Shown here one piece after another: positions 3,672 to 9,974 of a stretch of 38,322 nt of DNA. Where the stretch lies: positions 1 to 38,322 of IMG/VR virus record IMGVR_UViG_3300013102_000777; one strand, written 5' to 3'. The notes beneath the pieces were generated by a model. The model searched no databases, had not been told where the DNA came from, and saw nothing but the letters and a program-made list of their open reading frames with translations. Origin of the DNA: a virus. Position numbers and translations under genes: made by a program. The number at the start of each line of letters is the position of its first letter. Position 1 is the stretch's first letter.

Positions 3672-4394
3672 GTGAGTGTAACTAAAGTCGTTGCGTTAAC
3701 CAATGTTGGGCTGCTAGGAGGCGCATTGCAGCGCGCACAGGCGCGCCCAGCGGGCCTGCCAGGCCTGGTCGTCATGTACGGTGCCAGCGGGCTTGGAAAG
3801 TCGGTCTCCGCTTCCTATGCCGCGAATCTGCACAGAGCGTATTACGTCGAGTGCCGCGATACCTGGTCCAAGAAAGCCTTTCTGCTGGCCGTCCTGAAAG
3901 ATATGGCCATCGCCCCTGGCCGCACACTGAGCGACATGATGGACCAGATCGCAGAGCAGCTTTCCCGCTCTATGCGCCCTCTGATTGTCGATGACGTTCA
4001 ATACATGCTCGATAAGGCCATCGCCAACGTCCTGACGGATCTCTATAACGCGAGTCAGGGGACCATCGTGCTGATCGGTGAAGAGCGGGTGCCAGGATCG
4101 CTGGCCAGGCTTGAACGACTACACAATCGCGTTCTCGAATGGGTGCCCGCACAACCTGCATCGCTTGACGATCTGCGGCAACTGGCGACTGCCAACTACC
4201 CACAGCTCAAGGTGACCGATGATCTGCTCGAAGACCTGGGACGCGCTACTGGCGGCTGTCTACGTCGAGCAGCGGTGAACCTTTACAAGGTGAATAGCGA
4301 AGCCTCCGCCATGATGCTTGAGCGAGTGGATTTGGCGGCTTGGGGTAAGCGCGGCTGGTTTACCGGCGAAGCTCCTGTTCGGAGGGCTCGCTGA
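3672..4394 (+). CDS. B: MuB-type AAA+ ATPase, target-DNA activator
   Basis: ATPase of 240 residues that in Mu coats target DNA, delivers it to the transposase and gives target immunity. Walker A is GASGLGKS at residues 37-44 and Walker B is LIVDD at 103-107. Compared with Mu B (312 residues) it lacks the N-terminal HTH domain and begins almost directly with the AAA module. Start is GTG 3672, with AAGGAG at a good distance. The last base of its stop is shared with the next gene (TGATG). Confidence 0.9.
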   Translation: MSVTKVVALTNVGLLGGALQRAQARPAGLPGLVVMYGASGLGKSVSASYAANLHRAYYVECRDTWSKKAFLLAVLKDMAIAPGRTLSDMMDQIAEQLSRSMRPLIVDDVQYMLDKAIANVLTDLYNASQGTIVLIGEERVPGSLARLERLHNRVLEWVPAQPASLDDLRQLATANYPQLKVTDDLLEDLGRATGGCLRRAAVNLYKVNSEASAMMLERVDLAAWGKRGWFTGEAPVRRAR

Positions 4395-5989: not shown

Positions 5990-6474
5990 TGCGCACCCGC
6001 TGCCCGAACTGTGGCACCACCCTGTCCCTGGATGCGCTGATCGCGCACGACGGCGCCCGTGAGGCCCTGGGCGTGGCCTTCAAACTGTCCGGTCCCGTGG
6101 GTAATGCCTTGATCCGCTACCTCGGCCTATTCCGGCCGGAGTCGCGCGAGCTGACGATGGATCGTGTGGCCAAGCTGCTCGCCGAACTGCTGCCGGACCT
6201 GCAAGCCCAGCGCATTGAGCGCGGTGGCCAGGTGTTCGAAGCGCCCCCGGCCTGCTGGGCCTGGGCCATCGAGCAGGCCCTAGCTGCGCGTGAGGCGGGA
6301 CGACTGGTAACGCCGCTCAAGGGGCATGGCTGGCTGTACCAGGTCATGACCCAGTACCAACCCCAGGCCGGCGCGGCGGTGGTGGTTCGCGAGGATGCCT
6401 CGCGTCTGCCTATCCGTCCCGTGAGCCAGACCACGGCGGCTATGGCGGCGCTGGAGGGGCGTCTCCGTGGTTGA
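5989..6474 (+). CDS. Early hypothetical protein with N-terminal CxxC knuckle
   Basis: A 161-residue protein starting at ATG 5989 in a TGATG overlap. It opens with MRTRCPNCGTTLSLDALIAH, a half zinc-knuckle, followed by a helical domain with a conserved-looking aromatic stretch (LKGHGWLYQVMTQY). I do not recognise the family. Its place between replication and regulatory genes suggests a replication accessory role, but this is position-based inference only. Confidence 0.6.
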   Translation: MRTRCPNCGTTLSLDALIAHDGAREALGVAFKLSGPVGNALIRYLGLFRPESRELTMDRVAKLLAELLPDLQAQRIERGGQVFEAPPACWAWAIEQALAAREAGRLVTPLKGHGWLYQVMTQYQPQAGAAVVVREDASRLPIRPVSQTTAAMAALEGRLRG

Positions 6475-6853
6475 AGAGTGGTTAGAGCGGGCCGTCGTTC
6501 AGGGTTTAAAGGGCCTGGTTGCCCTGCGACTGGACGGTGCCCCCGCCGCCGATGCCATCACGATGACTCTCGACGTCTGGCTGGTGGCCCTGGAGCGGGG
6601 CCGGAGCTGGGAGGAGGACCGCGACGCCTGGCGCATCCAGGCCGCTTTTTCGACGCTGTTCGCCACCTGCGAGCGCTGGCCGGCACCGGCTGCGCTGCTG
6701 CGACAGATGCCGCCGCCGAAGGGCTGGGCGACGCTGCCCAAGCCAGAAGTGAGCGAAGCGCAACGTATCAATGGGCGGCGCCACATCGCCGACATCACGG
6801 CCCGGCTCAAAGGCCTGGCCCCCACGACAGAAACGGAGCAACAACCGCAATGA
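6467..6853 (+). CDS. Early hypothetical protein
   Basis: A 128-residue protein beginning at GTG 6467, inside the end of the preceding gene. It is mostly helical with RWPAPAALLRQMPPP at about residues 70-84, a Trp-Pro pattern seen in some phage replication accessory proteins. No firm family assignment. Its stop overlaps the start of the DUF3164 gene (ATGA). Confidence 0.6.
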   Translation: MVEEWLERAVVQGLKGLVALRLDGAPAADAITMTLDVWLVALERGRSWEEDRDAWRIQAAFSTLFATCERWPAPAALLRQMPPPKGWATLPKPEVSEAQRINGRRHIADITARLKGLAPTTETEQQPQ

Positions 6854-7494
6854 ATACCCCCATCCCGGAAGGTTTCCGCCAAGACGCCAAGGGCCGCCTG
6901 GTGCCCGAGGACATGATCAAACCCATCGACCTGGCTCGCGACGCATTGGTGGCCGAGCTGGTCCAGAAGGCCCAGGCCGTTGCCCAAGTGCTGGCAGAGT
7001 TCAAAGCAAACGCATTCGGCGACATCAAGGCCTTCGTGGATCTGTCAGCCGAGCAGTACGGCGCGAAGTTGGGCGGCAGTAAGGGCAACGTGACCCTGCT
7101 GTCGTTCGACGGGCGTTACAAGGTAGTGCAGGCCGCCCAGGACGCGATCAAGTTCGACGAGCGTCTCCAGGCGGCTCGCGCCCTGATCGATGAATGTCTG
7201 GCCGAGTGGACACAGGATGCCCGGAGTGAGGTGCGGGTGATCGTCAACGAGGCTTTCCGTGCCGACAAGGAGGGTGAGATCAGCACCGGCCGCGTGCTGG
7301 CCCTGCGCCGGCTGGAGATCAGCGATGCACGTTGGCAGCGGGCCATGGCCGCAATTAGCGATGCGGTCCAAGTCGTGGGCTCCAAGAGCTACATCCGCGT
7401 GTATCAGCGCGTGGGGGACTCAGACCAGTACGTTCCGATCCCGCTCGACATCGCCAGCGCCCCCGTGGCGCAGGCCGCTACCACGCTGCACTGA
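6850..7494 (+). CDS. DUF3164 family early protein
   Basis: A 214-residue protein with the DUF3164 layout. It has a polar N-terminus (EGFRQDAKGRLVPEDMIKP), a long helix with LSAEQYGAKLGGSKGNVTLL, a strand pair around SFDGRYKV, then a helical tail ending in SKSYIRVYQRV. Members are standard in the early operons of Mu-like phages of Pseudomonas and relatives. Some database entries carry a misleading sulfate-transporter label. Function is unknown; position suggests replication or host takeover. ATG 6850 starts within the overlap with the gene upstream. Confidence 0.85.
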   Translation: MNTPIPEGFRQDAKGRLVPEDMIKPIDLARDALVAELVQKAQAVAQVLAEFKANAFGDIKAFVDLSAEQYGAKLGGSKGNVTLLSFDGRYKVVQAAQDAIKFDERLQAARALIDECLAEWTQDARSEVRVIVNEAFRADKEGEISTGRVLALRRLEISDARWQRAMAAISDAVQVVGSKSYIRVYQRVGDSDQYVPIPLDIASAPVAQAATTLH

Positions 7495-7535
7495 TTCAGC
7501 ACGTCGCTTACAGAATACGAGAGAGAGAAGTACTC

Positions 7536-7769
7536 ATGTCCAAGTTCACCCTGACTGTCGAAGACACCCCCACTGGCGTCGTTGTCGTTTGCGACAACGA
7601 GCCCCTCATGCACGAGTCGGCCGCTGGTCGGGTTGCTCACTCGATGATGATCAATGCCCGCTTGTTGGACCGTATCCCGCTCCCTGTCACCGCTGGCCGT
7701 CCCGGCTGCGACTGCGAAGCGTGCAAGGCCTACAACGAGCTGCTGGAAACCAATCCCACTATCCACTAA
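7536..7769 (+). CDS. Small hypothetical early protein with CxCxxC motif
   Basis: A 77-residue unrecognised protein. A predicted beta-rich N-terminus (KFTLTVEDTPTGVVVVCDN) is followed by PGCDCEACKAY at about residues 57-67, which could bind metal. A GA-rich ribosome-binding site (GAGAGAGAAG) precedes ATG 7536. Its final His codon and stop form the 5' edge of the first hammerhead ribozyme: the CCAC that can pair with ribozyme loop I lies in the last codons, so translation termination and ribozyme folding compete for the same bases. Confidence 0.65.
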   Translation: MSKFTLTVEDTPTGVVVVCDNEPLMHESAAGRVAHSMMINARLLDRIPLPVTAGRPGCDCEACKAYNELLETNPTIH

Positions 7770-7826
7770 TGCGAAACCGCCCGAGTGGGCGGTCTGCTCG
7801 GCGTGGTGGCCGGGTACTGATGAGCA
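7763..7826 (+). ncRNA. Type II hammerhead self-cleaving ribozyme, copy 1
   Basis: All conserved hammerhead positions are present. CTGATGA lies at 7817-7823 and GAA at 7773-7775, with the A15.1-U16.1 pair at 7776/7793 and cleavage base C17 at 7794. Stem III is 7776-7782 with 7787-7793 (7 bp, GAGT loop). Stem I is 7795-7802 with 7809-7816 (8 bp, two of them G-U, loop GTGGTG). Stem II is open: TGC 7770-7772 pairs with GCA 7824-7826. CCAC 7763-7766 can pair with GTGG 7803-7806 of loop I, like the loop I/II contact known for natural hammerheads. Predicted cleavage falls between 7794 and 7795. An open stem II makes it type II, a class known mainly from bacteria and phages. Confidence 0.88.
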
Positions 7827-7839
7827 GCCGGAGACGGGG

Positions 7840-8247
7840 ATGGAAGAAGCAGATTGGGATGCGCTGAAAGAAATGATGACCATGCCCTGGGGTTCGATGA
7901 AGCTTCAGTGCGATGAGTACGAGCTGACTCTCTGCCAGGAACTGGACGGCAAGCGTAAGCGCTGGGCGACCATGGTTTACGTGAATGGCGTTTTCAATGG
8001 CAAGTGGTCCGCTGCCGAAGACAACAAGCCTACCCATGAAGAGGCCCGCCGATTCCTACGCCCAGTCACCTCGGCGCTGTACTCGAAGAAGGAAATAGAG
8101 GCGACTCGGAAGGTCTGGGGGAAGAGAGAGGCAAACAGACTAACGGAGAGACGGTGGACGTATTTCTCGCCCGTCTGGACCAACTTCAACTCCCTGCGTA
8201 AGCACCTGGTTTCCAATAACACCAGTGTTTCGAGGGTGCTGCACTGA
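7840..8247 (+). CDS. Hypothetical protein encoded between the two hammerhead ribozymes
   Basis: A 135-residue unrecognised protein starting at ATG 7840 with GGAG six bases upstream. The N-terminal half looks beta-rich (SMKLQCDEYELTLCQELDG and WATMVYVNGVF); the C-terminal half is basic and helical (SALYSKKEIEATRKVWGKRE), then WTYFSPVWTNFNSLRKHL. It is the only gene within the 485-nt RNA that would be released by cleavage at 7794 and 8279. A second, out-of-frame AUG in the core of ribozyme 1 (7820) opens a 15-codon ORF that overlaps its start, which could tune translation. Its last codons (CAC TGA) are part of ribozyme 2. Confidence 0.7.
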   Translation: MEEADWDALKEMMTMPWGSMKLQCDEYELTLCQELDGKRKRWATMVYVNGVFNGKWSAAEDNKPTHEEARRFLRPVTSALYSKKEIEATRKVWGKREANRLTERRWTYFSPVWTNFNSLRKHLVSNNTSVSRVLH

Positions 8248-8311
8248 GCGAAACCGCCCCGGCCTGGCCGGGGATGGTCTGCCGGGCGTGGTGGTCCGGT
8301 ACTGATGAGCA
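8241..8311 (+). ncRNA. Type II hammerhead self-cleaving ribozyme, copy 2
   Basis: CTGATGA lies at 8302-8308, GAA at 8250-8252, A15.1-U16.1 at 8253/8278, C17 at 8279. Stem III (8253-8263 with 8267-8278, one bulged A at 8274) is longer and differs in sequence from copy 1. Stem I is 8280-8287 with 8294-8301, 8 bp, again with loop GTGGTG. Relative to copy 1 it carries a compensatory C-G to G-C change (7799/7812 versus 8284/8297) and two half-compensated changes. Stem II is short, only C8249-G8309 and G8248-C8310. CAC 8242-8244 can pair with GTG of loop I. Cleavage is predicted between 8279 and 8280. The AUG of the next gene (8305) lies inside the catalytic core. Confidence 0.85.
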
Positions 8312-8601
8312 GCCAAACGATGACGCAAGAAACTCCAGCCGACCGCAAAAAGCGCCTGGCCCGCAACCGCCAGCAAGCCCGGCGAGACCGGATCAAGGCG
8401 CGCCGCGTGGCCATAGGAGCCGAGCGGTTCACGCTGGAAATGGGTGCCGGCACCCGCGCCGCCCTCAAGCGGATCTGCGAGGCCGGTCAATTCGAAGAGG
8501 ACGCCGAAGCCCTGACGTTGCTGATCCACGGCGCGGCCACCCTGGCCCGTCGTGATCCAGCGGCGTTCGCGGCACTGGTGGATGGGAGGCGGCATGAATA
8601 G
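8305..8601 (+). CDS. Putative ribbon-helix-helix protein whose AUG lies in the hammerhead core
   Basis: A 98-residue protein. The basic N-terminus (RKKRLARNRQQARRDRIKAR) is followed by a likely ribbon-helix-helix fold: strand RFTLEMG, then helices AGTRAALKRICEAG and EEDAEALTLLIHGAA. This suggests a small DNA-binding regulator. ATG 8305 is part of the CTGATGA core of ribozyme 2 and has no good Shine-Dalgarno; an in-frame ATG at 8320 is the only near alternative and also lacks one. Initiation at 8305 therefore excludes the folded ribozyme, while cleavage leaves this AUG 25 bases from the new 5' end. The 3' end overlaps gemA. Confidence 0.6.
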   Translation: MSSQTMTQETPADRKKRLARNRQQARRDRIKARRVAIGAERFTLEMGAGTRAALKRICEAGQFEEDAEALTLLIHGAATLARRDPAAFAALVDGRRHE

Positions 8602-8998
8602 ACGTAACCAGCAGTTGAGCAAGATCCACATTGCCAAGAAAGAGCTGGCCATGGATGACGACAGCTATCGGGCGATGCTGGCACGGGTAGCGGGCGTGAC
8701 CTCGGCCAAGGATCTCGGTCCACGCCAGGTCGGCGCGGTACTCAGCGAGTTCGAGCGGCTGGGCTGGAAGCCGAAGCCCGGCCGGGCCAAGCCGAACGCG
8801 GCGGCAGACCGGCAGAAATTGGTCGGCAAGATCGAGGCGCAACTCGCCGAGGCCAAGCGCCCCTGGGACTATGCCGATGCCCTGGCGCAACGGCTCTACA
8901 AGGTCGAGCGATTGGAGTGGCTCGATGCCAAACAGCTCGGCGGAGTTGTCACGGCCTTGGCCAAAGATGCAGAGCGGCATGGGAGGCCAGGCAAATGA
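8594..8998 (+). CDS. gemA: GemA-like protein (Mu gp16, DUF1018)
   Basis: A 134-residue protein of the Mu GemA/gp16 family. In Mu it affects host gene expression and DNA topology. It shows the usual IHIAKKELAMDDDSYRAMLA opening, a basic linker (KPKPGRAKPN) and WLDAKQLGGVVTALAKDAE near the end. ATG 8594 has GGGAGG at good distance and overlaps the upstream gene by 8 bases. The Mor-type gene starts in its stop codon, which is the conserved gemA-mor order of Mu-like phages. Confidence 0.88.
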   Translation: MNRRNQQLSKIHIAKKELAMDDDSYRAMLARVAGVTSAKDLGPRQVGAVLSEFERLGWKPKPGRAKPNAAADRQKLVGKIEAQLAEAKRPWDYADALAQRLYKVERLEWLDAKQLGGVVTALAKDAERHGRPGK

Positions 8999-9438
8999 GC
9001 AATGGTGAGCTGTTCGAGAACGATGCGGACAAACTGGACCCGGCGCGAGTGCTGGCCAATATGGACGACCCGGCAATCAAGCATCGCTGGGAGGGCACGC
9101 TCAAGGAGATGGTGGAGATCGCCGAGGCCGAGCTAGTCCAGCGACTGGCCGACAATCCTGAGCAGGCAGCGGAACTGGCCCGAGCGGTCGTCTTCGCTAT
9201 CTGCAATACCATGGGGGGCTCGGTGCTTTACCTGCCACGCGGGACGGCTTTACAGAACGCTATTCGTGACGCTGCACTGTTCCGGGACTGGCGGGACCAC
9301 AACATAGGGCCGCTAGAATTGGTGCGTAAGTACAAGATCACTTCCCCGACCGTTTATGCGATCATCGCCCGCCAACGGGCCTTGCATAGACGCAATGAGC
9401 CTGACTTGTTCGGGTTCGGTGAAGGGACTTTACATTGA
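8995..9438 (+). CDS. mor: Mor/C-family transcriptional activator
   Basis: A 147-residue activator. Mor and C of Mu are dimeric proteins that bind imperfect dyads upstream of a poor or missing -35 box and recruit RNA polymerase to middle and late promoters. The central part matches the family (AICNTMGGSVLYLPRGTALQ), as does the C-terminal HTH at about residues 113-132 (LVRKYKITSPTVYAIIARQR). GGGAGG precedes ATG 8995. No second Mor/C gene is seen, so this one protein probably activates the late promoters directly through the three CTTAA-N4-TTAAG dyads. Confidence 0.92.
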   Translation: MSNGELFENDADKLDPARVLANMDDPAIKHRWEGTLKEMVEIAEAELVQRLADNPEQAAELARAVVFAICNTMGGSVLYLPRGTALQNAIRDAALFRDWRDHNIGPLELVRKYKITSPTVYAIIARQRALHRRNEPDLFGFGEGTLH

Positions 9439-9974
9439 AGGGACGATTGCTTTTCGTTGCTGTGGTCATGGCCTACAGCCTGACTACGGTAGGCGCTACC
9501 AGTACGGCGGATGTCGAAAAGGCGGTTAGCGATAAAGAGGCCGCTGTCGAAGCGAAAAGCAATCGAGCCCTGGCCATCAAGTTGGTTGAGAAGTCGCTGA
9601 AGGCATGTCGCGCGCAGGACTGGGCGCAACAATCCGAGGTGATGCATGACATCGACAAAGCGTTGGACCGCCAGCCGGTAAACCATCTCAAATACCGCGC
9701 ACGGTTCGTGTACTCGGCCTGCCGACAAATGCTTCTGGACGTCAACTCTATCAACGCCTCTTGCTTCAACAAGCAACCCTCAGCGAGGGAGCTGGCAGAG
9801 GCAAAGCGCATCCTGAAAGAAGACGCCAGTGAGTGCGCCGCTAATATCCGCAACCCGGATTTGGGTTACGACGACCCGCAGCCAGAAACAGACGAAGAGA
9901 TAACGGACGCGCTCAGGAAGGAAGGGAAGTCGGAAGAGGATATAAAATTTATTCTCGAAGTTAGAAAACTCTAA
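9435..9974 (+). CDS. Secreted hypothetical protein, probable moron
   Basis: A 179-residue protein with a signal peptide (MKGRLLFVAVVMAYSLTTVG, likely cut near residue 21 after GA) and an acidic, helical, Cys-containing mature part. The four Cys of the mature part (in KACRAQD, SACRQM, ASCFNK and SECAAN) could form disulfides. It starts at TTG 9435 inside the mor stop; a later ATG at 9468 would remove most of the signal peptide. It has no counterpart in Mu and ends at a strong terminator just before the first late operator, so it looks like lysogenic or periplasmic cargo at an operon border. Function unknown. Confidence 0.65.
   Translation: MKGRLLFVAVVMAYSLTTVGATSTADVEKAVSDKEAAVEAKSNRALAIKLVEKSLKACRAQDWAQQSEVMHDIDKALDRQPVNHLKYRARFVYSACRQMLLDVNSINASCFNKQPSARELAEAKRILKEDASECAANIRNPDLGYDDPQPETDEEITDALRKEGKSEEDIKFILEVRKL

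Follow-up and report, generated by a model that had tools for sequence, protein, structure and literature searches.

Genomic setting of the paired hammerheads

The window analysed here, the whole 38,322-base stretch of IMG/VR record IMGVR_UViG_3300013102_000777, is a Mu-like phage according to the phage gene families found across it, including a Mu transposase and a MuB-like ATPase (Table 1). Exactly two Rfam matches were found in the window, both to Hammerhead_II (RF02276, gathering score 37 bits) on the + strand. A preliminary description of the sequence had placed two direct-repeat hammerheads at these positions, and the RF02276 scores and the type II assignment bear this out. They belong to the early operon, where the DUF3164 and u77 genes precede them and the GemA and Mor-like late activator genes follow, and they frame a slot that here contains one gene (gene A).

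The ribozymes are fitted closely between the reading frames. The stop codon of u77 (TAA, 7767-7769) ends 1 nt ahead of stem II of the first copy (HHR1), and gene A starts 14 nt past this stem II, with a Shine-Dalgarno-like GGAG (7830-7833) adjoining the pseudoknot tail of HHR1. Gene A ends in TGA (8245-8247), directly against stem II of the second copy (HHR2), and C98 starts 9 nt past it without a clear Shine-Dalgarno sequence. With such stop-to-start spacing, each ribozyme makes up the entire intercistronic gap. A search of the interval 6400-9500 gave no consensus sigma-70 promoter and terminator-like matches at chance level, a single one of them on the coding strand (at 6626), so that the slot, the ribozymes and the flanking genes likely share one transcript. 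An internal promoter near the slot was rejected, since the same interval lacks a consensus sigma-70 site.

Table 1. Positions of the genes, ribozyme elements and predicted RNA in the window
Feature	Position	Strand	Basis or remark
Mu transposase	at 1577	+	
MuB-like ATPase	at 3672	+	
DUF3164 gene	6478..7494	+	PF11363 E 3.6e-84; upstream flank of slot
u77	7536..7769	+	phrog_3652, family of DMS3-16
HHR1 (type II copy 1)	7769..7833	+	RF02276 73.3 bits, E 1.3e-13; own type II finder
HHR1 stem II, 5' strand	7771-7772	+	
HHR1 GAAA	7773-7776	+	
HHR1 stem III	7777-7792	+	
HHR1 UC	7793-7794	+	
HHR1 cleavage site	7794/7795	+	predicted
HHR1 stem I	7795-7816	+	
HHR1 CUGAUGA	7817-7823	+	
HHR1 stem II, 3' strand	7824-7825	+	
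HHR1 pseudoknot, 4 bp	7804-7807 with 7827-7830	+	predicted; loop I UGGU with tail GCCG; covaries in relatives
Released RNA, 485 nt	7795..8279	+	predicted from both cuts; sequence and cleavage rule
Gene A	7840..8247	+	ORF, 135 aa, phrog_5671; sole gene of the 485-nt stretch
HHR2 (type II copy 2)	8246..8318	+	RF02276 65.8 bits, E 1.1e-11
HHR2 stem II, 5' strand	8248-8249	+	
HHR2 GAAA	8250-8253	+	
HHR2 stem III	8254-8277	+	
HHR2 UC	8278-8279	+	
HHR2 cleavage site	8279/8280	+	predicted
HHR2 stem I	8280-8301	+	
HHR2 CUGAUGA	8302-8308	+	
HHR2 stem II, 3' strand	8309-8310	+	
HHR2 pseudoknot	8289-8292 with 8312-8315	+	
C98	8320..8601	+	phrog_4093; 93 aa from conserved start 8320; directly 3' of HHR2
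GemA	8552..8998	+	PF06252 E 6.6e-26; downstream flank
Mor-like late activator	8917-9438	+	phrog_532

Structure and conservation of the ribozymes

Both copies score above the gathering score and retain an intact CUGANGA, GAAA and NUH core. Stems I and III are closed by loops, stem II is short and open, and loop I pairs with the tail in a pseudoknot; a pseudoknot class of type II hammerheads has been described (PMC3088659). Our own type II finder recovered the same two sites in the window, and it returned no site with a score of at least 15 in 60 first-order Markov simulations of the window. In a set of 27 different stem I halves taken from relatives, 212 of the 216 cells are paired, whereas a shuffle that ignores kinship gives a mean of 189 and a maximum of 198; position 5 of the stem varies as GC, CG, AU, UA and UG. 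Compensatory pairs also occur between loop I and the tail in relatives (UGG/GCCA, UAG/GCUA, CGG/GCCG, UGGCA/UGCC). Such compensatory variety in stem I and the pseudoknot is hard to account for except by selection, and the preservation of stems and pseudoknot through these changes suggests that the RNA structure itself is what is selected.

From the sequence and the cleavage rule, cuts are predicted after C7794 (GGUC/UGCUC) and after C8279 (GGUC/UGCCGG), and self-cleavage at both copies would leave 5'-OH and 2',3'-cyclic phosphate ends. Of 18 consensus hammerheads assayed by Perreault et al. (2011, PMC3088659), 14 were active. The same study showed cleavage in vitro for tandem prophage hammerheads and, in the Agrobacterium tumefaciens case, also in Escherichia coli. 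As a separate observation, seven Aeromonas plasmids (H46-H52) carry 39-bp matches to the stem I/core half of HHR1, ~95% identical and at places with no annotated feature.

A variable gene slot in related phages

Loci were compared across viral contigs, phage records and Pseudomonas genomes. Hammerhead_II was present in 20 of 399 sampled Pseudomonas genomes, eight of them with two copies, under strict filters that may miss weak copies. Paired ribozymes occur at 17 loci, the window included, where they frame a slot of variable content (Table 2) and lie 485 to 1170 nt apart from cleavage site to cleavage site. The preliminary description had suggested looking in related phages for the same pair around the same gene; the paired layout recurs, but the gene inside it varies and is not always gene A. 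Single copies at unrelated sites, which would have spoken against that description, are not what was observed: the single copies of the relatives occupy one and the same site.

Table 2. Slot content and ribozyme arrangement at the compared loci
Arrangement	Loci
Slot with gene A	window, L138
Slot with gene B (DUF2786/DUF7168, phrog_421)	L135, L136, L140, L191
Slot with genes A and B	L003, L139, L141, L146
Slot with another small gene and gene B	L147, L178, L180, L188, L190
Slot with gene A and another gene	L177
Slot with gene B and another gene	L185
Slot empty, one ribozyme before C98	L134, L137, L181, L183, DMS3, D3112, JBD26
Single copy before GemA	L182, L186
Slot genes with upstream ribozyme only	L179, L187, L189

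The Casadabanvirus phages DMS3, D3112 and JBD26 carry the same RNA family at the orthologous site and between the same neighbours, with a phrog_3652 gene upstream and C98 (phrog_4093), GemA and Mor downstream. However, they have no slot gene and only one copy, which is orthologous to HHR2. The geometry of the insertion is nearly constant: in 16 of the 17 paired loci the reading frame ahead of copy 2 terminates at its stem II, and in most loci the first slot gene begins 13 nt past stem II, as against 14 nt in the window and 16 nt in L185. In related loci C98 starts 7-9 nt past stem II. A ribozyme is never found between genes A and B, so strict processing into single genes is not general, and the loci with slot genes behind an upstream ribozyme only indicate that bracketing on both sides is not essential. 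The copies within one locus are 77-91% identical. The distant phages YPCBV-1 and B23 also have a gene A relative, which one hammerhead precedes by a few hundred nt.

Hybrid ribozymes at empty slots

Two of the loci with an empty slot indicate how cargo may have been lost. L134 and L135 are close relatives, and the sole ribozyme of L134 is identical to copy 1 of L135 from stem II through CUGAUGAGCA, after which it continues with the tail of L135 copy 2 and C98; by sequence comparison this is a firm case of a copy 1/copy 2 hybrid. The L137 ribozyme is probably also a hybrid, on suggestive evidence: its upstream sequence is copy-1-like (0.91 vs 0.65) and its stem I, tail and downstream sequence are copy-2-like (1.00, 1.00 and 0.83), which places the apparent crossover near the cleavage site, although its 5' half by itself is nearly neutral between copy 1 and copy 2 (0.90 vs 0.87). 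L181 fits a hybrid origin weakly. Homologous DNA recombination between the two ribozymes, with loss of the slot and one ribozyme unit, would be the simplest account. The relatives thus present, as a pattern, the gain and loss of cargo around one remaining intact ribozyme. As DNA, the ribozyme repeats would provide the short homologies for these exchanges, leaving one intact ribozyme behind.

These hybrids, together with the strong turnover of the slot, could be taken to mean that the copies matter mainly as DNA, that is, as direct repeats for cargo exchange whose RNA cutting is tolerated or makes an insertion harmless. We consider this unlikely, because compensatory changes keep the stems and the pseudoknot and so point to a selected RNA structure, the copies within a locus are only 77-91% identical, and phages with an empty slot still keep a single copy. 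If the ribozymes were nothing but recombination linkers, their presence and absence could also be accounted for, but not the covarying catalytic structure.

Proposed processing of the early transcript

The two ribozymes are probably best understood as processing linkers between cistrons, placed on either side of a slot for accessory genes in a Mu-like early operon. Each ribozyme would act in cis on the polycistronic RNA, cleaving it while transcription is still under way. The mRNA on the 5' side of a cut would be left with a G+C-rich stem III hairpin that terminates in a 2',3'-cyclic phosphate. The mRNA on the 3' side would begin with a 5'-OH and a leader of ~38-45 nt, in which the stem I hairpin and its pseudoknot form a cap just before the ribosome-binding site. 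A 5'-OH leader should resist 5'-monophosphate-dependent decay (RNase E, RppH). In this way, the mRNA stability and translation of the slot gene or genes would become independent of those of the neighbouring genes, for any cargo. The preliminary description had likewise placed the pair inside an early operon and proposed that it sets separate fates for the early mRNAs, and separate processing is the explanation that fits the sequence evidence best.

That description had also derived a 485-nt RNA carrying a single 135-codon gene, which does follow from the two predicted cuts. This RNA would consist of a 45-nt leader, the open reading frame and a 32-nt trailer with the stem III hairpin at its end, and it most likely stays linear and is translated. 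The effect on C98 may be different: it has no clear Shine-Dalgarno sequence after the copy 2 cut, so that cutting could lower rather than aid its translation. An AUG at 8305-8307, within the conserved core CUGAUGAG, is in frame with C98 here and out of frame in DMS3-type relatives; if used, it might give C98 a five-residue N-terminal extension (98 aa). It was rejected as the conserved C98 start, given that it is out of frame in those relatives and that all homologs align from 8320.

Gene A had no match in Pfam or PADLOC, and its identification as a known anti-defence or nuclease protein was rejected on this ground. Its AlphaFold model (pLDDT 90) has no match below E 1 among solved structures and one viral structural neighbour, which is unnamed. 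Gene A frequently adjoins a DUF2786/DUF7168 gene.

Each ribozyme might instead act as a regulatory leader that controls translation of the next gene, with cleavage tuned by ribosomes or another signal and the partition of the operon a by-product. The near-fixed distance to the start codon and the overlap of the pseudoknot tail with the ribosome-binding site agree with such a role, as does the HF1/HF2 hammerhead, which lies 13 nt before a start codon and matches a mapped 5' end (PMC3088659). However, the cargo after copy 1 differs in family among phages with the same leader, and no ligand or alternative fold was identified, so that this reading appears improbable. Under the processing-linker reading, a ribozyme that fills the whole gap would let a compact operon take up cargo while leaving the mRNAs of its neighbours undisturbed, and would double as homology for swapping that cargo. 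The locus bears on the purpose of phage hammerheads, since it offers a natural experiment in which the same ribozymes occur with empty, one-gene and two-gene slots, in a lineage related to the laboratory model DMS3, whose single copy is predicted to be cut between nt 8982 and 8983 of NC_008717.

Evidence bearing on a circular RNA

The preliminary description had further raised the possibility that the released 485-nt fragment, carrying gene A, is ligated into a circle by ribozyme reversal or by RtcB, in the manner of satellite RNAs and retrozymes. The predicted ends, 5'-OH and 2',3'-cyclic phosphate, would be suitable for this, RtcB is present in 25 of 59 sampled Pseudomonas genomes, and the junction hybrid can fold as a hammerhead at 1.9 kcal/mol above the free minimum. 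As that description had it, stem III at this junction would belong to copy 2 and stem I to copy 1. Stem II, which had been assigned to copy 2, would instead be a hybrid of 2 bp only, its 5' strand coming from copy 2 and its 3' strand from copy 1; it is predicted at ~2e-6 in the released RNA by folding without pseudoknots. An alternative helix at the circle junction (GAGCG/UGCUC) is not kept in relatives. Moreover, because the halves are self-contained hairpins and stem II is GC/GC in related copies, any 5' half fits any 3' half, and the hybrid formed by joining the two flanks also folds as a hammerhead, 0.3 kcal/mol above its free minimum. Reconstitution at the junction is thus automatic for any two type II halves and not diagnostic of a circle.

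The length and content of the interval also argue against a circular unit, which would measure 485 nt in the window but 490 to 1170 nt in relatives, with other genes inside, or be absent there. RtcB is missing from six of the eight Pseudomonas genomes with paired copies and present in two, and spliced or circular products were sought and not detected for other tandem prophage hammerheads (Perreault et al. 2011, PMC3088659). Circularisation was therefore rejected on the weakly held ends, the unconserved unit and the patchy distribution of RtcB; although chemically possible, it is unsupported and seems very unlikely. Likewise very unlikely is an extension of the idea, in which the paired hammerheads free the slot gene as a coding circle, and the hybrid ribozymes of the empty-slot relatives testify to cargo that travelled by way of this RNA and its cDNA instead of by DNA recombination.

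Relation to known systems

Tandem hammerheads flanking single prophage genes were reported in 2011, for example in the ardA cluster of Agrobacterium tumefaciens (PMC3088659, Fig. 3), and processing into gene-length mRNAs was proposed there, with circular products also considered; the tandem arrangement, the processing role and the circular alternative are thus already published. In addition, self-cleaving ribozymes are enriched near Mu-like phage genes and near each other (PMC10085705). Like the 2011 prophage clusters, the window has pseudoknotted type II hammerheads at a short distance from each other, all on the coding strand, and in both cases they surround one or a few genes of a phage operon, the identity of which varies. 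It differs in that the pair occupies a fixed place in a Mu-like lineage (u77, slot, C98-GemA-Mor), and the present comparison extends to the content of the slot, the relatives with an empty slot and the hybrid ribozymes. No description of a framed accessory slot in the DMS3-related lineage with hybrid ribozymes at empty slots, and no direct study of the DMS3/D3112 hammerhead, was found in the open-licence literature.

The HF1/HF2 halovirus case (PMC3088659) is similar in that a ribozyme lies a few nt before the start of an early gene (helicase) and a 5' end was mapped near the cleavage site, but it is a single copy with a core variant in an archaeal virus. Retrozymes and viroid-like satellite RNAs share the layout of two direct-repeat hammerheads around a unit-length RNA. 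However, theirs are of type I or III and belong to circular RNA replication or retrotransposition, whereas both copies in the window are type II and enclose a coding unit in a DNA phage operon, and the unit is not conserved among relatives in length, gene content or presence.

The placement of type II hammerheads next to reading frames is not peculiar to this lineage. In a pattern scan of IMG/VR, which is a sample and whose counts cover the matches listed, an ATG-started ORF of at least 50 aa lies within ~60 nt past stem II for 108 of 151 listed hammerheads, compared with 21% of random positions on the same contigs, and an ORF stop adjoins 123 of 156 listed matches, compared with 26% at random. 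After deduplication of the listed matches, 105 of 146 have a start nearby, at a median gap of 20 nt, and 77 of 146 are closely flanked by a stop as well as a start. Larger groups recur in the same collection, with 3 to 8 hammerheads at similar spacings (~285, 650, 1380 and 710 nt) in the viral contigs L027, L039, L086 and L089. An extreme array is present in a 6956-nt stretch of L076 (IMGVR_UViG_3300017605_000570), where 10-11 type II hammerhead candidates occur within ~4 kb, nearly one per small gene, with starts mostly 16-21 nt past stem II.
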